NCBI GenBank assembly: GCA_026988315.1 | Contig: JALSLJ010000056.1 | Coordinates: forward strand, 1 to 64,000 | From: Sulfurimonas sp. | Lineage (GTDB): Bacteria; Campylobacterota; Campylobacteria; Campylobacterales; Sulfurimonadaceae | DNA length: 64,000 bases | Direction: 5' to 3' | Translations under genes and position numbers: made by a program | Notes under the pieces: generated by a model | The model's database searches: none | What the model was told of the DNA's origin: nothing | Seen by the model: only the letters and a program-made list of their open reading frames with translations | Part shown: one piece after another, positions 14,363 through 30,066 of the stretch | Position numbering within the stretch: the first letter of the stretch is position 1 | How the letters are laid out: each line of letters begins with the position of its first letter

Positions 14363-14390
14363 CAAAGCAAAAGTTTATCACTTTGCTTTG
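14363..14390. terminator. Bidirectional hairpin terminator
   Basis: A 9-bp stem (CAAAGCAAA at 14363-14371 with TTTGCTTTG at 14382-14390) spans the gap between convergent genes and overlaps the last codons of the receptor gene. Confidence 0.45.
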
Positions 14391-15808
14391 TTAGAGTATT
14401 TTTCATAAACTAAAGAGTCTAATAATTCAAATAATTTATCGCTATCTTTTTCCATATTTTCAAAGTTATTAATTATTTGCTCCTTAGAACTATCTTTATA
14501 AACAGTATTGTTTTTAACAAACTCCATGTTTTTGTAAACATTATCATGCACTGATGCATGTGGTATATCTATCTTTTGATAGCTTGGCATACTTGAAAAG
14601 CTTTGAGTTGCTTCATTTAAATACCATTTTCCAAAACGACAATTCTTATGATCACTTACTTGAATATCTATATTGTTAATAATTGCAGAGTAAGCACTAG
14701 ATTTAAAAAGTATGTGGTCAACTTTCACTAATGTAATAAATATTTTGTTATTTATAAGTTCCGAAAGTTGTGCATTTTGAGAAGCTGATTTGCTAAATGA
14801 TTTAAACAAACTAGATACACTCTCTAGATGCTTACTTGTTGTGTTTGCAATATCACTCATCTGAATTGAGTTGTCTTGTATTGTCATTGTCTCTTGCTGT
14901 AATGTTTGGATAGTTATAGAGATCTCTTGAGTTGCCTTTGTTGTTCTCTCTGCTAGTTTTCTAACCTCATCTGCAACTACAGCGAAACCTCGCCCGTGCT
15001 CACCTGCTCTTGCCGCTTCTATAGCAGCATTTAAAGCAAGTAGGTTTGTTTGATCAGCAATATCTTTAATAAGACTCACTACAGAGGATATCTCTTGTGA
15101 GCTTTCAGCTAAGCTGTTTACCGCTGATGAAGAGTTTTCAATAAACTCACTTAAACCGGAAAACTGTTCATTAACATCAGATACACTCGTTAATCCTTCA
15201 TCTGCTTCATTCAGTATAGATATAGAATCATCTAAAATTTTGTCAATTTTCTCACTATTTGATTTCAAGTCTTCTTGAATAACTTCTAAGCTTTTTGCCA
15301 TTCCACCACCTAAGGAGTGAAATTTAGAAGAGAGCTCCCCCTTATTTTTCATAGCAATGCCCTCATAAACTGAGCTTACACCAAGGTTTATTTTTTTAAG
15401 ATTATCACTAAAAGCTCCATACAAACCCTTTGTCTGAGCTTGACGCGGTATCCCCTTAGTAGCTTTCTCTATACTTGTTGAAGCTTCTCGCATAAATGTC
15501 TCTAGCTGGTCTAGTGTATTATTTATTTTCCATGCTAATTTAGACAAAGGATCGCTACTATCTATATTTGTAACTCTTTTTTCAAATAGCCCTTTTGACA
15601 TATCATCAATCAAGCTACTAAACTCTTCTAAAAGCTTTGAATTTTGAGTTGTATTTGATGGTACAGATAAGATTGGCAACAATAGTACAATAAGAACCAA
15701 TGCAATTATATACTCACCCATAAATAAAAATACAACTGAGGCTATTGCTGCAATTACTAGAGAGTAAAGTGCTTGATAGTTACGAAATAGATGTGATAAA
15801 TTCGTCAT
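14378..15808 (-). CDS. CetA-like methyl-accepting chemotaxis protein with CZB domain
   Basis: A 476-residue receptor: paired membrane helices near residues 12-50 with almost no periplasmic loop, a HAMP-like region (about 60-110), a signalling coiled coil with the kinase-contact tip ([19 protein letters not shown]), and a C-terminal zinc-binding CZB domain ([24 protein letters not shown]). The start at 15808 is preferred over an in-frame ATG at 15826 because AAGGGGA lies just before it. It overlaps the PAS gene by 29 bases. With that PAS protein it matches the two-part CetA/CetB energy-taxis design of Campylobacter. The CZB domain adds possible zinc or hypochlorite sensing. Confidence 0.88.
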
Positions 15809-16268
15809 AGTCCATCCCCTTTTCATTTAGTATTGAATTTAGTAGTTCTTCTGATTTTGTTATGCCACCCTGTTTTTCAGCATCTAGTAGTTTTTTATAT
15901 AAATCTTCTATAACATCTATTGCTTGCGTCGATGGCTTCCTTCTAACTGAAAAATATCCAAGTATATTATCTCTTGAATCTAGCGAAGCAGTTACATTTG
16001 CTATAACCCAATAATAGTCATCATTTTTTGTTCTATTTTTAACAAAAGCAAAAATCTCTTCTTTATTTTTTATTCTATCCCACAAAAGTTTAAAAATAAT
16101 TTTCGGCATATCCTTATGTCTTAAAATATTATGAGGTTTTCCTAAAATCTCTTTTTCCAAATAGCCAGACATCTCAATGAAAATCTCATTGCCATAAACT
16201 ATTTTTCCCTTTAAATCTGTTTTAGATACAATAAAGTCACTATCTTTAAGTACTCTTTCCATCTTCAA
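15780..16268 (-). CDS. CetB-like PAS-domain sensor protein
   Basis: A soluble 162-residue protein with one Aer-type PAS domain: [49 protein letters not shown] and [12 protein letters not shown] domains of this type bind FAD and report redox state. No membrane helix or signalling domain is present, so it must act through a partner, presumably the overlapping downstream receptor, as CetB does with CetA. It is transcribed divergently from the cache-protein operon. Confidence 0.88.
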
Positions 16269-16404: not shown

Positions 16405-17358
16405 ATGTTCAGTTTTATCAAATTTTTTCAGTCTTTAACAGCTTTTTTAAAAAGAAAAAAATGGTTATGGTTTAGTATTTTAAGTTTTGGTTCGGCTGCT
16501 GGTGTTTTAATATCTATGCTATTTATAAACATGATGACAAGCGATGTTGCAAAGAAAACATTTTTAGAACAACACCGTCTTGATACAAGTTTACTTGATG
16601 GCTTCATTACATCTCGTTATGATTCTCTACTTTCAGTTGGTAATATCTTAGCAATTGAACCAAAAATTATCACACATATTAACCAACAAGAAGATGAAAC
16701 CTTAGTAGCACTACTTAACAAAACATCTCAAAATATAAATGATAAAATAAACATAAGCCCTCTAAGTATTAAATATTATGCACTTGATTATCAAGCTTCT
16801 ATATCTGAAAATCAGGAATATGCAGATTTAGTAATGTCATCTAAGCAAAATATTACAGGTATAGCAGTAAATAAAGATGGGGTTCGCTTAATCTCTATTA
16901 CACCCGTTGTAGATAAAAATGACACTATTGGAGCCATAGAGGTCTCTCAAAGTATTCATGCTCTTAAAGAAGATTTTGAGCGTATTGGCAAAGAGTTCAT
17001 TTTTATTTTAAACAAAAATCAATTAGTATTTTTAGATATAAAACACAAAACAGATACCTATACTGATATTGACGAACAATATAAAGTGGCATTTCATAAC
17101 TATGATTCAAAGTTTTATACAAATCTTCAAAAATTAGATGTTGAAAGTTTTAGAGAAAAAAAATATAATAACAATAAAAATTTCTACACAACCTATAGTG
17201 AAACTTACGATTTGAATGGTAGAGAAATTGGAATGTTTTTCATAGGTCAAAGTGCTGCCAATGCTAATTCCTTTGTAAAGATTACAGAAGATATGATTAA
17301 ATCAGTTACTATGGTAGCTCTGGGTCTTGTTATATCACTAATCTTATTTATGTTCTAA
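16405..17358 (+). CDS. Membrane-anchored cache-type sensor protein without output domain
   Basis: A 317-residue protein: a cytoplasmic N-terminus rich in Lys, a membrane helix at about 19-43, a periplasmic region of about 250 residues resembling a double cache ligand-binding domain (LDGFITSRYDSLLSVGNILA, YYALDYQAS, GIAVNKDGVRLISITPVVDKN), and a C-terminal helix at 296-317. It stops within that helix (LVISLILFMF), so there is no HAMP, kinase, GGDEF or MCP module. The next gene starts 16 bases later. It probably senses a periplasmic signal and passes it through the membrane to the channel protein encoded next (inference). Confidence 0.75.
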   Translation: MFSFIKFFQSLTAFLKRKKWLWFSILSFGSAAGVLISMLFINMMTSDVAKKTFLEQHRLDTSLLDGFITSRYDSLLSVGNILAIEPKIITHINQQEDETLVALLNKTSQNINDKINISPLSIKYYALDYQASISENQEYADLVMSSKQNITGIAVNKDGVRLISITPVVDKNDTIGAIEVSQSIHALKEDFERIGKEFIFILNKNQLVFLDIKHKTDTYTDIDEQYKVAFHNYDSKFYTNLQKLDVESFREKKYNNNKNFYTTYSETYDLNGREIGMFFIGQSAANANSFVKITEDMIKSVTMVALGLVISLILFMF

Positions 17359-17374
17359 GAGGGAGTCAGCTAGT

Positions 17375-19570
17375 ATGAAACGCTTAAAAATAATGAAGTC
17401 ATATATGGTTTTATGGCTATTTATTTACTTTTTAGTTCACTCCAATATAGAAGCAATATCTGTATTTTTCTTTGCTACACTAACATTTAATCTTGCAGTT
17501 TTAACACTGCTTACTATTGGTATTATTATGGTTATGAAAGCAGCTATTAACCTTGTGATGCTAGCTGGAACATTTGGTATTTTGGCATATAAAAAAGATA
17601 ATCTTGCATTTTACCTACAAGATATAGATAAAATTATGCCAGCAAATATTGCTCATATGTTTTATGCTCGTGCAGAAAAAGGTGTACTGCTTTTTACAAC
17701 TGAAGAGTCTCGTGATGTTATTGAGTGGATTGAAGAAAAATTTTCACACCAAAACAGATATACAAATTATTTTATCGGTACTGTTTTGATGATTGGTCTC
17801 TTGGGTACATTCTCTGGACTTCTTATCGCAATTGATGACATGGGTAGAATTATTTTATCTCTATCTGGCGATATTGACTTAGCAAAAGTTATATCAGACT
17901 TTTCTGGTCCTCTTGGTGGTATGGCTGTTGGGTTCGGATCTTCACTATTTGGTGTTATAGCTGCTATTATCCTTGGTCTTATGGGCTATATATTAAACAA
18001 AAACCAAGAAACACTAGTAGAGGGTGTTGAAGATTGGCTAAAAGGTCGTATCATTAATACTGGGGGAATAACATCGACAACTTCTATAGGCACAGAAGTG
18101 AGTGATATGCCAGATCACAAAGCATCTTTTATGGAAGTCTTTATAGACAACATCTCTACCTTATCAAACGAAATGTCAAAAATGTCTCAAACCAACGAGA
18201 GATTAAATTCTGCCACTATTGCTTCTATTCAGGCTGCGAGAGATGAACATGAGATAAGTGTTACCCTATTTGAGGATATTAATAAATCTCTTAAAAATAT
18301 CGATACAAATGCACAAAATTCAACTAAACTTGCCATTCAGCAATTTGATGCTCTGCAAAACACTATCAGTTCCAATCACAAACAACTAATAGCCTCACAA
18401 AAAGAATCTATACTTACTTTAATAGATAGAATAGAGTCTTCCCTGCAAATAACTCAAGAGGTACTATCACAAAAGCTTCAAAATATATCTGAACACTCAT
18501 CTGACGAGCTCAAAGAGCAAACAAATTCAATTGTTACAATATTGCGAGCAATTGATACGCAGCTCATAGAAAAACAAAAACTGCTATTTGATATTCAACT
18601 TGATAATAAACAAAATCAAGAAATAAATGAAGATTTTCTAAAGCAGTTAATCTTACTAATTAAAGATTCAAGCTCTAAACTAGATATAGAGTATGAGGCA
18701 CTACAAAGCATCCACAAAGAGCTAGAGTTAGACAACGAAAACTCTAAAGAACATTTTCAAGGTATCACTGCGTCACTTACATCACTATCTCAAACTTTAC
18801 AAAATGAAACACAAAGCCTAAACTCCTTAAAAGAGATACAAACAGAACAATCTGAAATAATGAAAGATAATGCAAAAAGCTCACAAGATATCCGTCAAAC
18901 TTTACTTGAATCACAAATGCAAAGCTTAAAACAAGAAGAACATTTATCAGAGATAACTTCTAAAATTGACTCATTTAAAGAGCAAATGACTCAAGCACAT
19001 GGCAAATCTTTAGAGATGTTAGGTGAGACAATCAAACCCCTAGAGAACATTATTGAGGTTGGGAAAAATCAAAACGAAAGTTTAAAAGATTTACTTGGCA
19101 CAGGTGAGAAAAATGCAAATGAAGCACAAAACCACTTAAATACAATCACGACAGAGCTAGAATCTGTAAACGAACAAATTGCTCAAGCAAATAACAACTC
19201 AATTCAAATGATTGATGCAAACAAACAAGAGCTTCAAGCACTAGAAAATATTTTACTTAAAAATGAGGAATATTCAAATACTCAAGAGAAACAACTAAAC
19301 AATCTAACCTCAAAACTAGAATCTCTTAACGAAGAAATAGCTAAAACAAACAAAACATCCTTGCAGATGATGGAAGCTAATGCAAAAGAGTTTAAAACAC
19401 TCACAGAAATTGAAAATGTACAATCACAAACACTAGATAAACTACTCAAAACAGATAAGCATAGTAGCAATGTTCTAGATAAAATTCAAAAAAATACAAC
19501 AAAACTTCGTCCAGGCGGTTCAAATAAAAATAAAAAAAGCGATAGCTTTTTTGATAAACTATTTAAGTAG
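17375..19570 (+). CDS. MotA/TolQ/ExbB-like proton-channel protein with long coiled-coil tail
   Basis: A 731-residue protein. N-terminal hydrophobic helices lie at about 12-30 and 35-70. The family core follows: TVLMIGLLGTFSGLL (helix about 132-153) and SGPLGGMAVGFGSSLFGVIAAI (helix about 180-206). Residues about 240-715 form an extended coiled coil. Near its end are three related repeats of about 45-60 residues containing TSKIDSFKEQ, TTELESVNEQ and TSKLESLNEE. ZorA of Zorya defence has the same plan, but ZorC, ZorD and ZorE genes are absent. With the next gene it probably forms a proton-driven rotary or torque unit (inference). Confidence 0.82.
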   Translation: MKRLKIMKSYMVLWLFIYFLVHSNIEAISVFFFATLTFNLAVLTLLTIGIIMVMKAAINLVMLAGTFGILAYKKDNLAFYLQDIDKIMPANIAHMFYARAEKGVLLFTTEESRDVIEWIEEKFSHQNRYTNYFIGTVLMIGLLGTFSGLLIAIDDMGRIILSLSGDIDLAKVISDFSGPLGGMAVGFGSSLFGVIAAIILGLMGYILNKNQETLVEGVEDWLKGRIINTGGITSTTSIGTEVSDMPDHKASFMEVFIDNISTLSNEMSKMSQTNERLNSATIASIQAARDEHEISVTLFEDINKSLKNIDTNAQNSTKLAIQQFDALQNTISSNHKQLIASQKESILTLIDRIESSLQITQEVLSQKLQNISEHSSDELKEQTNSIVTILRAIDTQLIEKQKLLFDIQLDNKQNQEINEDFLKQLILLIKDSSSKLDIEYEALQSIHKELELDNENSKEHFQGITASLTSLSQTLQNETQSLNSLKEIQTEQSEIMKDNAKSSQDIRQTLLESQMQSLKQEEHLSEITSKIDSFKEQMTQAHGKSLEMLGETIKPLENIIEVGKNQNESLKDLLGTGEKNANEAQNHLNTITTELESVNEQIAQANNNSIQMIDANKQELQALENILLKNEEYSNTQEKQLNNLTSKLESLNEEIAKTNKTSLQMMEANAKEFKTLTEIENVQSQTLDKLLKTDKHSSNVLDKIQKNTTKLRPGGSNKNKKSDSFFDKLFK

Positions 19571-19581
19571 GCTAACTAAGA

Positions 19582-20298
19582 ATGGGAAAACGCTGTCCAG
19601 AAGATTTTAATCCTTGGCCACCATTTGTTGATATATTTGCATCTGTTATTCTAGTATTGATGCTATTTTTACTCATAACAATTGTAAATATTGGTTATTA
19701 TGCTCAATTTAAATCTGTAAAATCTTACACATCATATGCTACCGTGAAAGTGGACACCGTTATAGTGGATGATGGGCCACCAGCCCCTACCACTTGTATC
19801 CCAAGACCTGAAGTTAAAGAACAAAAAGATGAAATTGATATGATTTCATTTCACAAAGTTCCTGAACCCCAAAGTACAGAATCAAATAGCTCTCTCTTTA
19901 GCGGTGGCATTGCAGAGGGAAATGCCGTGATGTATGCTAGAGAAAAAGAGAGAAAAATTACAAATCAAACAGCAGTTTTAAAGGAACGAAGTATAGAGCT
20001 ATTTTTTGAAGATAAAGAGATTTTTATTAACACTGCTATAAAATTTAAAATTAAAAAATTTATTGGCGACATCAACAGAATGACTAAAGAATCAAAATTT
20101 ACAATCTTTGTAAGAGACCCAGATGGTATTATAAGTGCAACATTAGCAAAACAAATTTCACTAGGCCGTGTACTAAATATTAAAAGTATTATCAAAAAAA
20201 GTAACATCAAATCTAAAAGAATTAAAATAAACCTACAAGAGCAGGTATCTGTACCTTCAAAGTATGGTAGCTTAGTTATAAAGGCTTACATCCCATGA
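19582..20298 (+). CDS. MotB/ZorB-like partner protein
   Basis: A 238-residue protein with a single N-terminal membrane helix preceded by PWPPFVDIFASVILVLML. Asp17 sits at the start of the helix where MotB, TolR and ZorB have the proton-carrying Asp. A Pro-rich periplasmic linker follows, then a C-terminal domain (about 135-238) with a degenerate OmpA-like pattern: FINTAIKF, a strand FTIFVRDPDG, SLGRVLNIKSIIKKSNI, and a last strand. The Asp/Arg peptidoglycan contacts are not clear, so the target may differ. It overlaps the TolC-like gene by 4 bases. Confidence 0.75.
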   Translation: MGKRCPEDFNPWPPFVDIFASVILVLMLFLLITIVNIGYYAQFKSVKSYTSYATVKVDTVIVDDGPPAPTTCIPRPEVKEQKDEIDMISFHKVPEPQSTESNSSLFSGGIAEGNAVMYAREKERKITNQTAVLKERSIELFFEDKEIFINTAIKFKIKKFIGDINRMTKESKFTIFVRDPDGIISATLAKQISLGRVLNIKSIIKKSNIKSKRIKINLQEQVSVPSKYGSLVIKAYIP

Positions 20299-21767
20299 GA
20301 ACTATATCCTTATCTCTAGTTTTTACTTTTTCACTCTTTGCTAATGAAACTTATTTAGATAAAAACTTATATTCATCTATAAATAATTTTAATGAAAACA
20401 ATGAAACTACTAAATCAGTAGCACCTTTATTGTCAACACAAGAAACAAATAAAACCACAAATACAACTTCTTTAAAAGAGGATCTACTCTTTAAGTCAGA
20501 TAGAAAATCTGGATTTACATTAGCTGAAGCAATTACGTACTCTTTAGATAAAAATCCAAAGATAAAAGCATCTAATCAAAAAGTTTTACAGTCACAACAA
20601 AAAGTAAAAGAGGAAAACGCTTCCCACTTACCTATAATTGATCTATCAGGAAACACAGGCCAAGAGGCTCGTACATTCCAAGAAGATTACTCTTCTGGTG
20701 TAAAAGTATCAGCACCACAAACTCAATTTTACCAATATCACAAAACAGAACTTTTTCTTACTATTAAAGAAAATCTATGGAGCGGTGGAAAAATCCAAAG
20801 TAGAGTAAATGAACAAGAAAACAGACTTCAAGCAACTCGTTATGACCATAGAGAAAAAATCGAGACAGCTGCACTAGATATTATCAAATCATATTTTGAT
20901 GTTGTCTATGGGGAAATTGCCGTAAATATCTCCAACAAAAACATGAAAGACTATCAAAAAATATTAGAGATAGTAAAAATAAAAGAGGAGAGTGGTGCTG
21001 CAACACAAGGTGATGTGAATTTTATACTCGCAAATATTGAAAATGCAAAAACATCCCACATTAACACACAAGCAAAACTAAGCGATGCCATTGCTCAATA
21101 TGAATATCTGATGCAAGATATTAACACCTCAAATATGCCGTACGAAACAGAGATAACTATACAAGAACCAAATTTGGATGAATCACTTATATATATGGAA
21201 AAAAATAATGCTAAACTTTTAAGGCAAAAATCTTATATACAAGCAACCTCTTTTGCTCTTAAAGCTCAAGAAGCTTTGTACCATCCAACTATTGATTTAT
21301 CTTTCAATGCTGAATCAAAAAATGAATATGATGAGGGGCTTGGACAAAGAGACAAGGTAAATGCACTTATCTCTTTTAACTACAATCTTTATAATGGTGG
21401 AAAAGATGAAGCTGCATACATCCGTGTATTATCCATCATGAATGAGCAAAAATATACTTATGATGACCAAATGAGAAAACTCACTTTTGATATAAAAGTA
21501 CTCAACCGTTCTGTCGCTTCAATGAGAGACTCTTTAGAGCTAACTCAAAGTGAAGTTATCGCTGCTCGTAAAGTTGTTGAGAACTACTGGATAGCATTTA
21601 AACATGGTACACAAGATCTTCAAGCACTACAACTTGCTCAAAGAAATCTTAATCGTGCAGAGCTTGATTATGCTAACTACAAAAAAAATCTTATTATTAA
21701 TAATTTTAAGCTTATGAAAAACACAGGAATGCTACTTAAATTTTTAAATATAGTTAACGAAAACTAA
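20295..21767 (+). CDS. TolC-family outer-membrane channel protein
   Basis: A 490-residue exported protein (signal MRTISLSLVFTFSLFA). It has a 50-residue Asn/Thr-rich extension, then two outer-membrane efflux (OEP) repeats with long helices: TLAEAITYSLDKNPKIKAS, IKENLWSGGKIQSRVNEQ, and later NYNLYNGGKDEAAYIR. TolC proteins form trimeric tunnels for type I secretion or efflux. The resemblance is greatest to the AggA/LapE type. No ABC transporter or membrane-fusion gene is nearby; instead the operon supplies a MotA/MotB-like pair. Confidence 0.9.
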   Translation: MRTISLSLVFTFSLFANETYLDKNLYSSINNFNENNETTKSVAPLLSTQETNKTTNTTSLKEDLLFKSDRKSGFTLAEAITYSLDKNPKIKASNQKVLQSQQKVKEENASHLPIIDLSGNTGQEARTFQEDYSSGVKVSAPQTQFYQYHKTELFLTIKENLWSGGKIQSRVNEQENRLQATRYDHREKIETAALDIIKSYFDVVYGEIAVNISNKNMKDYQKILEIVKIKEESGAATQGDVNFILANIENAKTSHINTQAKLSDAIAQYEYLMQDINTSNMPYETEITIQEPNLDESLIYMEKNNAKLLRQKSYIQATSFALKAQEALYHPTIDLSFNAESKNEYDEGLGQRDKVNALISFNYNLYNGGKDEAAYIRVLSIMNEQKYTYDDQMRKLTFDIKVLNRSVASMRDSLELTQSEVIAARKVVENYWIAFKHGTQDLQALQLAQRNLNRAELDYANYKKNLIINNFKLMKNTGMLLKFLNIVNEN

Positions 21768-21781
21768 AATTACAATTATGA

Positions 21782-21787
21782 TAAAAT
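21782..21787 (+). promoter_or_regulatory. Possible -10 box of the ankyrin gene
   Basis: TAAAAT lies 35 bases before the ankyrin ATG, in the 54-base gap after the TolC-like gene, so the gene may be separately transcribed. Confidence 0.4.
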
Positions 21788-21821
21788 ACATATACTAAAT
21801 TTGATCTATAAGGGATAATTA

Positions 21822-23087
21822 ATGTTAAAAAGAAGTTATTTTACCTATGCATTACTGTTAGGAGTTTCTATAAGCCTGTTCTCTCCTCAACATGTTTTAG
21901 CCGATGAAAATGGTGAGAGAATTATTAGGCTCTTAGATAACGATAATCTCAATGATGATGTCAAAGGGATTATTATAAATTTGATTAAAAAAGGGGCTGA
22001 TGTAAATAGTGTAGATGCTGATGGATACACTCCACTCTTAACTGCCGCATCTTTAGACCAAGTTTATATTATGGAAGCCCTTATAAAAGCAGGAGCTGAT
22101 CTCAACACAGCAAACAAAGGTTTCACCCCTTTAATGCTTGCAAGTCGCAGTGGAAATCATCATGCAGCACTACTGCTGATAAACAAAGGTGCAAAAATCC
22201 ATCTTCAAAATATCTATAAAGAAACTGCGCTTCACTCGGCAGCACAAGGGGCACTTGAAGATATTGTAATTATGTTGATCAACAAGGGTGCTAAGATTAA
22301 CATTAAAGATGATGAGGGGATGACACCTCTACTTTACACTACTAAAAATTGGTTAGCCGATGCTTCATTACTGCTTATTAAAAAAGGTGCAGACACAAAT
22401 ATTACAGATAAAGAGGGAAATACTCCCCTTCTTTATGCTGCTAAAAGTTCAATGCCAAAAGTAGCTATTAAGCTTATAGACAAGGGTGCTGATGTTAATG
22501 TAAGGGATATAGATGGTAAAACTTCTCTATTTTTTGCAATGGAATATACTCTACCAAATCTCTTCTCAAAATTAATTTCTAAAAATGCTGAGATTGATTT
22601 AAAAACTTCAAATGGAGTTACACCTATATTTTTCGCTGCAAAAGAGGGTTTAAATAAAAGTCTCATTAGATTACTTGAAAGGGATGTTGATATAAATGAA
22701 GAAAATGAATTTGAAAAAACTCCTTTAATTGTTGCGGTTGAGAACAAAAAAACTAAAACAGCGACTTTACTGATAAAAGAGGGTGCTAATATAAATGCAT
22801 CAGATAGAGATAAAAACTCAGCTTTAATCTATGCAACAGCTCTATCGCTCTCTAACACTGCGATAGAATTAATAAATAAAGGTGCTAATGTTAATGAGCA
22901 AAATGTTTATAGAGTAACACCTCTTATGAATGCGGCCGAAAAAGGGCTTATAAAAGTTGTTAAATTATTAATAAAAAAAGGTGCCAATATCAGAACTAGA
23001 GATATTCATGGTGAAAATGCTATTGATTATGCTACTCACAAAAGAAAAAATCATACGATAGAAAAATTACTCAAAGATGCTTTATAA
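21822..23087 (+). CDS. Exported ankyrin-repeat protein
   Basis: A 421-residue protein with a signal peptide (cleavage likely after VLADE or nearby). Twelve ankyrin repeats of about 33 residues fill the rest; typical units contain TPLLYAAK and LLIKKGADTN. There is no other domain. Exported ankyrin proteins usually bind or inhibit a periplasmic partner. An AAGGGATA ribosome site precedes the ATG. It lies 54 bases after the TolC-like gene on the same strand and may belong functionally to that operon. It is convergent with dnaK. Confidence 0.88.
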   Translation: MLKRSYFTYALLLGVSISLFSPQHVLADENGERIIRLLDNDNLNDDVKGIIINLIKKGADVNSVDADGYTPLLTAASLDQVYIMEALIKAGADLNTANKGFTPLMLASRSGNHHAALLLINKGAKIHLQNIYKETALHSAAQGALEDIVIMLINKGAKINIKDDEGMTPLLYTTKNWLADASLLLIKKGADTNITDKEGNTPLLYAAKSSMPKVAIKLIDKGADVNVRDIDGKTSLFFAMEYTLPNLFSKLISKNAEIDLKTSNGVTPIFFAAKEGLNKSLIRLLERDVDINEENEFEKTPLIVAVENKKTKTATLLIKEGANINASDRDKNSALIYATALSLSNTAIELINKGANVNEQNVYRVTPLMNAAEKGLIKVVKLLIKKGANIRTRDIHGENAIDYATHKRKNHTIEKLLKDAL

Positions 23088-25883: not shown

Positions 25884-27791
25884 TTATTTGAAAAGTTCAT
25901 CTTTTGTTTTTAAATAGGCTTCTGGCTTTGATATGAAGTATCCCTGCATAAAATCTATCTCCACCTCTAATAATTTTTCATAAACCTCTTTTGAGTGAAC
26001 AAATTCTGCAACTGTTTTCATATCACTCTGTTGTGCAAAATGGATGATACTTTTAACAACTTTAAAATCTTTCTCATTGGTATCTATATTTTTAATCAAA
26101 CTTCCATCTATCTTTAAATAATTAGCTTCTATATCTATGGTTGTTTTAAAATTAGAATAACCACTTCCAAAGTCATCTATAGAAACTTTTGCATGAAGAG
26201 AATGTAGCAAATTGATTTTTTCTTTAAAAAGTTCTATATTATCAATCTCGTCACTCTCCAATATTTCAAAGGTAATTCTTGATGCCAAATCTTTGTTTTC
26301 TTGTAAGGCTTTTATAATACTTGCTTCTATATCAGGGTTAGTAAGGTCACTAAAGTTAATATTTATGCTCACAGAACTTTTTAAATCTTTAAATTTATCA
26401 AAAATTATGGTCAATATTTTTTGTGTAAGTTTATAATGGATGTTAGTGTGTTTCAAACCTGGTAAAAACTGTAGAGGGGTTAATATCGTTTGATTTTTAT
26501 CTATAATTCTCACTAAAGCTTCATATTTTAAAATTTCACCAGTGTTATGGTTGTATATAGGCTGATAGTAACAAATAATTCTATTTTCCTCAAGTGATTC
26601 TTTTACATAACTAATACTCTTAACGGAACTCAGAAAAGTACTATTTTCTTTTTCATCAAAACATACAACTCTATTTCTTCCATCTTTTTTTGCTATATAG
26701 AGCATCTTATCCGCTGTTTTTATAGCTTCATAAAGATTTTTTTCTAAAGCTGGATATTTACTCAGCCCTATTGATACGCTTAGCTTTAATTCATGGGTAT
26801 CATAGATAAATTCCTCTTCACTAATCGCCCTTCTAATTCTCTCACATACCTCTATAGAAACTTCTTTTTCGTTACGATTATAAATAAGAAGAAGAAACTC
26901 CTCACCTCCATACCTCACTAAAATATCGCTATCTCTAATCTGCTCTTTAAATATTTTTGTCGCTTTTGAAAGTACATAGTCCCCTGCTTTATGCCCATAT
27001 GTATCATTTACAGATTTAAACCTGTCTAAATCAAGCATCGCTATACTATAGTGCTGAAGATTAAGCATAGGGGAGATCTCTTTGAGGTAGTTCCTATTAA
27101 AAGTATTTGTTAGCGAATCTGTAAATATTTTTTTTCTTGTGATGAAATAGTGAAAAATCTGTGTAATATTCATAATTACAAGAAGTAAAACAGAGATAAT
27201 CAAAATTATAAAAAAAGTCTCTAAGGGTTTAATAGACTCTAGTATAATTTTTTGTATATTTGTTGTTACATCTACATTAAATATACCAATCACCTCACCA
27301 TTGCTTCTAATTGGATGCAGATATGTTAAATATAAATTTTCAATATCATGCTGTTTTATTACTTGTGCTTTTTTAGTTTTATAGACCTTAAAGTATTTAT
27401 CGTCATTTACATCAAACTTTTGGTTAAAACTACTCTTATCTTCGGTTGAAGCATCTAGTATATATCTAAACTTATCTTTTTTGTCTTTATACAAAATATA
27501 AACATATTTAACATTAGATGTGAGCATTAAAGACAAAATATGCTCATACTCGTTTCTAATGCTCTCTTGATTAAACAAAGTGACTAGCTCATCAGTTGAG
27601 CCAATATCATTTGATTTTACTATATCTATTTCTAAATTTTTAAGAACATATACTATTTGCTCTATGCTATTGTCCTCAATTCTGCTAAAAATATCCTCTT
27701 TAGCCTTGTCTATATAAAAATATATATAAACAAAGAAAACTCCCAAAAGAATCAAAAAGGACATGATAAGCAACTCTTTTAGTTTTACCAT
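25884..27791 (-). CDS. Membrane-bound GGDEF/EAL cyclic-di-GMP enzyme
   Basis: A 635-residue protein: membrane helix at about 8-26, a periplasmic sensor with cache-like features (YVYILYKDKKDKFRYILDAS, YLTYLHPIRSNGEVIGIFNVDV), a second helix at about 190-210, then GGDEF and EAL domains. The cyclase signature is GGEEF with an intact RxxD inhibition site (RDSD) five residues before it. The EAL domain keeps YEALVR, the Asn in NINFSD, DDFGSGYS, LKIDGSL and the QGY loop. Both activities therefore look possible. The gene overlaps its upstream neighbour by 7 bases, in an operon with a TonB-dependent receptor. Confidence 0.92.
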   Translation of the reverse strand: MVKLKELLIMSFLILLGVFFVYIYFYIDKAKEDIFSRIEDNSIEQIVYVLKNLEIDIVKSNDIGSTDELVTLFNQESIRNEYEHILSLMLTSNVKYVYILYKDKKDKFRYILDASTEDKSSFNQKFDVNDDKYFKVYKTKKAQVIKQHDIENLYLTYLHPIRSNGEVIGIFNVDVTTNIQKIILESIKPLETFFIILIISVLLLVIMNITQIFHYFITRKKIFTDSLTNTFNRNYLKEISPMLNLQHYSIAMLDLDRFKSVNDTYGHKAGDYVLSKATKIFKEQIRDSDILVRYGGEEFLLLIYNRNEKEVSIEVCERIRRAISEEEFIYDTHELKLSVSIGLSKYPALEKNLYEAIKTADKMLYIAKKDGRNRVVCFDEKENSTFLSSVKSISYVKESLEENRIICYYQPIYNHNTGEILKYEALVRIIDKNQTILTPLQFLPGLKHTNIHYKLTQKILTIIFDKFKDLKSSVSININFSDLTNPDIEASIIKALQENKDLASRITFEILESDEIDNIELFKEKINLLHSLHAKVSIDDFGSGYSNFKTTIDIEANYLKIDGSLIKNIDTNEKDFKVVKSIIHFAQQSDMKTVAEFVHSKEVYEKLLEVEIDFMQGYFISKPEAYLKTKDELFK

Positions 27792-28213
27792 ACTTTTTCC
27801 TCTATATATGGTTTTAATGCACTAGATGCCTCTATACTTTTTTCTTTCAATCTTGGTTCTATTAGTATTATGTTTACTCTCCCTTTTTTCCAAAACAAAG
27901 CGCCAAAACTTTGAGGTAACTCATTTAACATCTCATAACTTAACACAAAGATATGTTTATCTAAGCATCTTCTATCTATATCTGAAAAAGTTTCCAAAAT
28001 TATAAAATTTGCATCCATGCATTTTATAGAGGTTTTGTGTATTTTATTGCTCTTTATGCTCTTTAAAATATCTTTATTATCGCTCCATATCACCATCTCT
28101 TTTTCTACAACTAGGCCAGAAAAAACACTGTTGATAATTTCAGCTTTTATAATGCTACTCTCTAGTGCAAAAAGCATTGATGCTGAAAAAACAAAGCTTA
28201 TCATAAATTTCAT
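27785..28213 (-). CDS. Small periplasmic protein of the receptor/c-di-GMP operon
   Basis: A 142-residue protein with a signal peptide (MKFMISFVFSASMLFA). Two cysteines (in IKCMDANFI and RRCLDKH) could form a disulfide. The C-terminal half contains SFGALFWKKGRVNIILIEPRL, an uncharacterised pattern. The position between a TonB-dependent receptor and a sensor GGDEF/EAL protein is where YfiR/DUF4154 proteins are often found, but I do not see a convincing YfiR match. A periplasmic link between the two is a reasonable guess. Confidence 0.72.
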   Translation of the reverse strand: MKFMISFVFSASMLFALESSIIKAEIINSVFSGLVVEKEMVIWSDNKDILKSIKSNKIHKTSIKCMDANFIILETFSDIDRRCLDKHIFVLSYEMLNELPQSFGALFWKKGRVNIILIEPRLKEKSIEASSALKPYIEEKVW

Positions 28214-30066
28214 TAGAATGTGTACTCCATAGTGACTAACGCTCGCCTATCTATAGCTTGAATCTTTACATTACTGATTGGAACCTGTGTTGCTTTATCT
28301 AGCAGATTTTCACCCTTTAGTTTTATATCTATTCTTTTGCCTAAAGGGTAGATAAGACCAATGGTATAATTGTTTCCTGCAGGCATATTTATCCCATCAA
28401 AACTACGATACGACGATCTATAAATCAATTCATTATATATGTCAACTTTTCCCACCTTGTTAAACAACTGAATGTACATGCCCTCTGTTGGACTAAAGTT
28501 ATTTTTTGAATAAAGTTTAAAAAAATCTATTATAAGTTTGTTGTTTACATCGAAACTATGTTCTAGATTTGTATATACTCTTGATAAATGCTTATTATCT
28601 TTAGAGTTTACATATTGATTCTGTACTCTATCAAATACAATTGCATTTTTCTTAGTAGAGTTGCCCCCACTTAGGCTTATTTTTGTATTTTGATACTTAT
28701 ACACTAGTTCAACTGTCATGGTCTGTGTTGTAGCACTATTAAGATTTGGATTTATGTTGTAATTTGGAGAAAATGTGGTCTGTCTAAATGTTGGATATAT
28801 ATATCCTTCAATAGCGAAAACTTTTACTGAAAAACTATCATTGATTGTTGATATATATCCAGCTCTTAGTATATGGTTTATGGATGATTCGTAGTCATCT
28901 TTTGTATAATTAACTCTTGCACTTAGTGTTAATAAATTTGTATTATTTATGTTCAATAAATTTTCCGCATATCCTATAAGCATATTTTTCTTTTTTACAC
29001 CTCTAGGCAGAGACTTGTATATATTATCTAATGTAAAATCATCTATTGCAAAATTTTCATTTTTATACTGAACTCCCATTGATAATTCATTTGATTCAAA
29101 AATAAACTTTTTATCTAGCATTATATTATAAACTCTTGTTTTGACTTTAGCTTCAACACTATTTGCAATGCTATTGTCATATAATTCAATGCCATTATCA
29201 TCTACACAGTTTGAACTTAATCTCTCATGGGATATACTCAAGGTAACTGAAAGTTCATTATCAAAATATTTACTTACTGAGATATGAGCACTATTGTTTT
29301 GAACATCACCATCATCAGGTGAACTGCCCAAACCCTTAAACATATCATACCTTTCATCAATTGCTCCAATCTCTATAGTATAGCTTTTGTCTTTTGAAAA
29401 ACTAAAGTTAAACTGCCCTCGTGTGCCATCACGAGATAATTCTTTATTATTTAGAGTGTATTTTTTAAAGCTATTTTTACTAGTATCTACACTAACTAAA
29501 TATGAGTATTTACCATTTTGTCTTGCATCAATAGCACGAGCATTTACACCTCCTATGCTGTCAAAAGATATTTGAGTAGAAGTTCCATTTTCTCGGGAGG
29601 GGTCTTTAGTGTAAAGTTTTATAACTGTATTTGCTGGTTCATTTCCAAAAGTAACCGAATTACTTGCTTGATAGATTTCAATATGGTCTATAAAATATAA
29701 ACTCATTTTACCATATTGCGTAAGAGCATTCCCTAAAGTAGCAGAGTTAAGTTCGTGTTTATTAATAAAAATTTTAACATTACTTTCTAGCACTTGATCA
29801 CTTCCCGACTTTACAAGAGTTGTCATACCATTTGGCGTCACCTGTAGAGTATAAGTACGAAGTGTTTTTAAAATATCATTAAGTGAGTATGCTTGCATCT
29901 TATCTAAGTCACTGCGGGAGAAAACTATCACATTACCAGCACTCTCTTTTTTACTCTTTAAGTAAAGTGCTTGAGATTTTTCATATTTTTGCAATAAACT
30001 ATCTAATTTTACCTCATCTGAATACAAGACACTTATAAGTAAAATATATAAAAGTAAAATTCTCAA
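28213..30066 (-). CDS. TonB-dependent outer-membrane receptor
   Basis: A 617-residue exported protein (signal ending near VLYSDE). The plug domain covers about residues 40-150 (NVIVFSRSDLDKMQAYSLND, KIFINKHELN, IDHIEIYQASNSVTFGNEPA). A beta-barrel follows, ending with an aromatic strand (RRALVTMEYTF) suited to BAM insertion. No clear TonB box is seen at the N-terminus. The substrate is unknown. It leads a three-gene operon (stop and next start share one base) with the periplasmic protein and the GGDEF/EAL enzyme. Confidence 0.85.
   Translation of the reverse strand: MRILLLYILLISVLYSDEVKLDSLLQKYEKSQALYLKSKKESAGNVIVFSRSDLDKMQAYSLNDILKTLRTYTLQVTPNGMTTLVKSGSDQVLESNVKIFINKHELNSATLGNALTQYGKMSLYFIDHIEIYQASNSVTFGNEPANTVIKLYTKDPSRENGTSTQISFDSIGGVNARAIDARQNGKYSYLVSVDTSKNSFKKYTLNNKELSRDGTRGQFNFSFSKDKSYTIEIGAIDERYDMFKGLGSSPDDGDVQNNSAHISVSKYFDNELSVTLSISHERLSSNCVDDNGIELYDNSIANSVEAKVKTRVYNIMLDKKFIFESNELSMGVQYKNENFAIDDFTLDNIYKSLPRGVKKKNMLIGYAENLLNINNTNLLTLSARVNYTKDDYESSINHILRAGYISTINDSFSVKVFAIEGYIYPTFRQTTFSPNYNINPNLNSATTQTMTVELVYKYQNTKISLSGGNSTKKNAIVFDRVQNQYVNSKDNKHLSRVYTNLEHSFDVNNKLIIDFFKLYSKNNFSPTEGMYIQLFNKVGKVDIYNELIYRSSYRSFDGINMPAGNNYTIGLIYPLGKRIDIKLKGENLLDKATQVPISNVKIQAIDRRALVTMEYTF

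Follow-up and report, generated by a model that had tools for sequence, protein, structure and literature searches.

Four genes at positions 16405-21767 of the window, by which we mean the whole 64,000-nucleotide stretch of Sulfurimonas sp. contig JALSLJ010000056.1 analysed here, probably encode two parts of a type I secretion machinery for giant RTX-type adhesins: the TolC channel and an accessory proton motor of the SiiAB type. We infer this from a periplasmic domain whose best fold match is SiiA of Salmonella, from the SiiA-like layout of the protein that carries it, and from a SiiE-like N-terminal prefix on the substrates encoded beside related copies. The module is widespread and well conserved, a variant of the known SiiAB kind and not a new free-standing machine; its novelty is possibly a sensor subunit built into the proton motor.

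Results

Five open reading frames, all on the + strand, occupy 16405-17358, 17375-19570, 19582-20298, 20295-21767 and 21822-23087, and are separated in turn by gaps of 16 and 11 bases, an overlap of 4 bases and a gap of 54 bases. Our check of the reading frames reproduced the coordinates and spacing given in the initial annotation. The anatomy and order described there also held: a dCache-fold protein, a ZorA/MotA-like protein with a coiled coil of about 500 residues, a MotB-like protein with Asp17, and a TolC protein.

The first gene (16405-17358, + strand) encodes a bitopic dCache-fold protein of 317 aa that has no cytoplasmic output domain. Pfam dCache_3 matches it at 24.8 bits (E 2e-05), slightly under the 25.7 cut-off, and a sequence-profile search matches it to the DctB structure 3by9 (8.8e-05). 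In the AlphaFold model (pLDDT 88) the predicted dCache fold is set between two membrane helices, one at each end, the last reaching residue 316 of 317, and the model aligns with the dCache domain of DctB (3by9) at Z 13.1 and an rmsd of 4.8 over 200 residues. In the window the protein closes with LGLVISLILFMF, and this C-terminal membrane-helix ending is kept by 14 aligned relatives, so the missing output domain is a family trait and not a truncation; neither the window protein nor any of these relatives continues into the cytoplasmic output domain of a dCache receptor. The periplasmic dCache fold is shared with sensors such as DctB and Tlp3, but the protein stops in its last membrane helix and has no kinase, HAMP, MCP or GGDEF output. 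We propose that it serves the motor as a third subunit or as its gate, and infer that it passes a periplasmic signal straight into it.

The second gene (17375-19570, + strand) encodes a ZorA/MotA/TolQ-like channel subunit of 731 aa, assigned on profile matches and hydrophobic segments, with a membrane part at about residues 1-225 followed by a cytoplasmic coiled coil of some 500 residues. Its best profile is PADLOC ZorA3 (E 4.6e-17); Pfam MotA_ExbB matches weakly (E 0.02), and a sequence search of the PDB with this subunit gave nothing useful. The membrane part is 47-79% identical across 14 relatives, while the tail varies in length.

The third gene (19582-20298, + strand) encodes a MotB/SiiA-like channel partner of 238 aa. 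Its AlphaFold model comprises one membrane helix carrying Asp17, a low-confidence linker at about residues 47-118, and a domain at 128-238 predicted to be of the peptidoglycan-binding type, with a beta-alpha, SiiA/OmpA-like fold. Asp17 and Arg196 are invariant in 58 sequences. The top structural match of the periplasmic domain is Salmonella SiiA (6qvp), with Z 14.1 and an rmsd of 2.1 over 101 residues, against Z 11.4 for the second-best match. A profile search of the PDB with this protein returned no SiiA match, and the PADLOC ZorB profile does not match it either; we nevertheless call the gene ZorB in describing gene orders below.

The fourth gene (20295-21767, + strand) encodes a TolC-family outer-membrane channel, probably that of a type I secretion system, matched by Pfam OEP (E 7.7e-37) and, as its top NCBIfam model, by type_I_sec_TolC (1.4e-48), whose score of 166 bits lies below the cut-off of 225. 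A TolC ortholog comes after ZorB in most copies of the module. Some of the TolC proteins, such as L086:7196-8920 and L074:2392-4137, carry an N-terminal SPOR (peptidoglycan-binding) domain, and the system's TolC homologues in Arcobacteraceae reach about 1400 aa.

The fifth gene (21822-23087, + strand), which had been taken as a member of the same system, starts 54 bases past TolC, is convergent with dnaK and encodes an exported protein with ankyrin repeats and a signal-peptide-like N-terminus. Co-transcription with TolC is possible, and a scan for promoters gave nothing above shuffled sequences. We place the ankyrin protein outside the module, as every related locus lacks a homologue.

To either side of the module the window holds another gene set. 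At 14378-16268 on the - strand, a PAS protein of 162 aa overlaps by 47 bases an MCP-type gene with a zinc-binding CZB domain, a pair that we take to be a split aerotaxis-type receptor resembling CetB/CetA. At 25884-30066, also on the - strand, genes for a TonB-type receptor, a 142-aa exported protein without a family and a membrane GGDEF-EAL protein overlap one another; through this set a receptor in the outer membrane may be tied to c-di-GMP.

The MotB-like protein is clearly present in 15 of 151 genomes of the window's family, and the order Cache-ZorA-ZorB-TolC is kept in 14/14 of the other family copies, one of which runs off its contig past ZorB. Genes for a type I ABC transporter and HlyD are present in the genomes of all 14; in 12 they lie within the same 20-kb region, either upstream in the same orientation or convergent with TolC, and in two genomes (G006 and G009) an ABC-HlyD-outer-membrane protein set is on a different contig from the motor. 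A search of the 151 genomes with this HlyD divided them cleanly, 15 genomes scoring 361 bits or more and the next 278, and the 15 coincide exactly with those that carry the motor.

A wider census, in which the membrane part of the channel subunit was used as the query against 84,980 species, yielded 60 loci in Campylobacterota, some of them named records of the family copies, and three in Alphaproteobacteria. The Campylobacterota include Sulfurimonas, Sulfurospirillum cavolei, Malaciobacter halophilus, Arcobacter caeni, Halarcobacter and Sulfuricurvum. Counted on the fetched stretches, many of which are short contigs, 56 of the 60 loci hold Cache-ZorA-ZorB, 55 TolC, 35 HlyD and 24 a GGDEF-EAL protein. 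Of the five genes suggested as a co-occurring set, cache, ZorA and ZorB stay together in 56/60 loci, TolC is found in 55/60, and the ankyrin gene has no homologue in any related locus. The recurrence of the gene order (14/14 family copies; 56/60 loci) places the arrangement beyond chance. Twelve genomes without HlyD at the locus were tested, and 11 have a clade HlyD elsewhere, one of these as a partial match; the twelfth, that of the solo module L074, has no clade HlyD. Across 35 genomes, HlyD distances correlate with cache, ZorA and ZorB distances at Spearman coefficients of 0.79-0.84, values that include shared ancestry and that 0/1000 permutations reach.

Two of the alphaproteobacterial loci show a related set. 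L116 reads HlyD-ABC-ZorB-ZorA-TolC, and L117 combines a ZorA match, TolC and an RTX protein with a PilZ domain protein, which lies between motor and TolC and again points to c-di-GMP. Our literature search, in which subscription journals were thinly covered, found no description of the Campylobacterota version.

Large RTX proteins are encoded beside many copies, for example one of 2887 aa in L026. In L069, L086, L088 and L096 the gene immediately after ZorB encodes a giant adhesin; in L082 such a gene comes after ZorB and TolC. By sequence, the giant substrates share a conserved, beta-rich N-terminal prefix of about 85 residues, next to which several have a coiled-coil-like stretch. The BapA_N profile finds a single alphaproteobacterial substrate, below its cut-off, and no Pfam model passes; we have therefore treated the prefix as a separate conserved domain, and regard it as a candidate retention module. 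The motif ..RPGDKI.FDFDISQA.FK.VGGDIVV.. within the prefix is common to L069:12087, L086:12005, L096:12096 and L065:17825.

Other neighbours recur as well, namely a GGDEF-EAL protein, a small lipoprotein, a Sel1 protein and a TPR-glycosyltransferase. In many copies the small lipoprotein, which has no Pfam family (L067:16362-16850 and equivalents), and the Sel1-repeat protein come after the GGDEF-EAL gene. Pfam models run on two downstream proteins at the likely position of a LapG cysteine protease gave no match.

The initial annotation had the usual TolC partners, an ABC transporter and a membrane-fusion protein, as absent. The genome in fact encodes a cognate HlyD at C18:7-1278, which shares 79% identity with the HlyD of the sister species and is followed by an outer-membrane protein in the order seen in G006 and G009, and ABC and HlyD adjoin most conserved copies. 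An ABC transporter and an adhesin beside conserved copies was the arrangement that the annotation had itself set against its reading, and type I ABC, HlyD and giant RTX proteins are what stands there. Searches of the window's own assembly (112 contigs, 99.85% complete) for the ABC ortholog, the TPR-glycosyltransferase and the adhesin found none of them, which is weak evidence of absence because the assembly is in so many pieces. Contig C18 opens on the start codon of HlyD, and with HlyD at the contig edge an assembly gap is expected there; the three genes may lie in it.

Discussion

The known system closest to this module is the pair SiiA and SiiB, encoded in Salmonella SPI-4 with SiiCDF and SiiE, which forms a MotAB-like proton channel controlling how SiiE, a giant type I substrate, is retained at the surface (PMC6272769, PMC12607715). 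Retention of SiiE shifts when the proton-motive force is raised or collapsed and is controlled by its N-terminus, which has beta and coiled-coil parts (PMC6272769). SiiB interacts with the ABC protein SiiF, SiiA consists of a helix, a disordered linker and a domain, and the same source treats the way in which such a motor governs adhesin retention as unresolved (PMC12607715). SiiAB is named as the type I secretion member in a 2025 paper on motors of this kind (PMC12204202). The likeness extends to a MotAB-like channel tied, in related copies, to TolC, HlyD and ABC proteins for a giant adhesin, to the predicted helix, low-confidence linker and peptidoglycan-binding domain of the MotB-like partner, and to a substrate N-terminus with beta and coiled-coil parts. 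The module differs from SiiAB, which has no known dCache subunit, in its conserved bitopic dCache protein, and also in its long ZorA-like coiled-coil tail, its RTX substrates and its recurrent neighbours with links to c-di-GMP or peptidoglycan. The GGDEF-EAL protein, lipoprotein, Sel1 protein, TPR-glycosyltransferase and SPOR-TolC proteins found here are absent from descriptions of SiiAB in the literature covered. The hosts also differ, SiiAB being from Salmonella and the present module from Campylobacterota, with a related set in Alphaproteobacteria.

With a stoichiometry taken by analogy, the inner membrane would hold a proton channel built of five ZorA-like and two MotB/SiiA-like subunits, and the MotB-like partner would be anchored to peptidoglycan through its SiiA-type domain. 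The HlyD adaptor, encoded elsewhere in the genome, and an ABC transporter, presumably encoded there too but not recovered, would export the adhesin by docking on TolC. Protons flowing through Asp17 would then decide whether the adhesin is held in the TolC channel or released from it, as proposed for SiiAB and SiiE, and the output-less dCache protein, sitting in the same membrane complex, would gate the motor on a periplasmic ligand. In its fullest form, this would be a three-component ligand-gated proton motor, in which a stoichiometric dCache subunit switches proton flow without cytoplasmic signalling and an extracellular chemical sets whether the adhesin is held or released; we offer this version tentatively, and think it somewhat more apt to be wrong than right.

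Several other accounts of the same genes deserve consideration. Within the same secretion system, the motor could instead power export, pulling or ratcheting the giant substrate or opening TolC, rather than control retention. The tight linkage of motor and TolC, with its 4-base overlap, would suit such a role, and some TolC proteins have a fused SPOR domain, suggestive of force or anchoring at the channel; however, in Salmonella lacking SiiA or SiiB the secretion of SiiE persists while invasion and virulence are reduced (PMC12607715), and we consider powered export unlikely, though the most plausible of these accounts. A somewhat smaller chance goes to a remnant, the ABC and adhesin half having been lost from the window's genome and the motor half drifting or re-used. 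That no ABC transporter, glycosyltransferase or substrate was found in a 99.85% complete assembly favours a remnant, but the four genes and HlyD are intact with their key residues conserved, and HlyD stands at a contig edge, a place where a gap in the assembly is to be expected.

The account put forward originally, an independent envelope machine in which a sensor and proton channel open a TolC tunnel without ABC or HlyD and with the ankyrin protein as a partner, now appears very improbable. The window locus and L060, L103, L106 and L110 are physically solo, and neither ABC nor substrate was found in the window's assembly. Yet the motor and the HlyD clade match perfectly in their phyletic distribution (15/15 of 151 genomes), HlyD is present in nearly all genomes with a solo module, the window's own included, and the ankyrin homologue is lacking in related loci; we reject a free-standing TolC system on this HlyD-clade co-occurrence, which extends to 11/12 solo modules. 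What survives of that proposal is a proton-driven channel with a TolC-type tunnel and a sensor-like partner, and what falls is a new envelope system devoid of ABC and membrane-fusion partners. An anti-phage defence system of the Zorya kind can be set aside almost entirely. Its channel subunit, with a long cytoplasmic coiled coil, resembles the one found here (PADLOC ZorA3), but the partner has no ZorB profile match and is SiiA-like by fold, and the genes linked to the motor are those of secretion and adhesins. PADLOC applied to eight flanking genes gave no match and hence no ZorC, ZorD or ZorE, in agreement with the earlier statement that Zorya effectors are missing, and the defence reading is rejected on these grounds. 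The Lap/Bpf/Dvh systems (LapD, LapG, LapA type) likewise secrete RTX adhesins by a type I route and share a membrane GGDEF-EAL protein with many copies of the module, but differ in that a proton motor is present here and that none of the downstream proteins examined could be recognised as a LapG-type protease.

Read as an accessory motor of adhesin secretion, the module suggests that SiiAB of Salmonella is no isolated case and that proton-motor-assisted adhesin secretion is widespread in environmental Campylobacterota. Alphaproteobacteria appear to have a counterpart of proton-motor-assisted type I secretion, with a PilZ protein. The conserved dCache subunit would be an input to the motor that is open to testing, and the genes are carried by the cultured species Sulfurospirillum cavolei and Arcobacter caeni.
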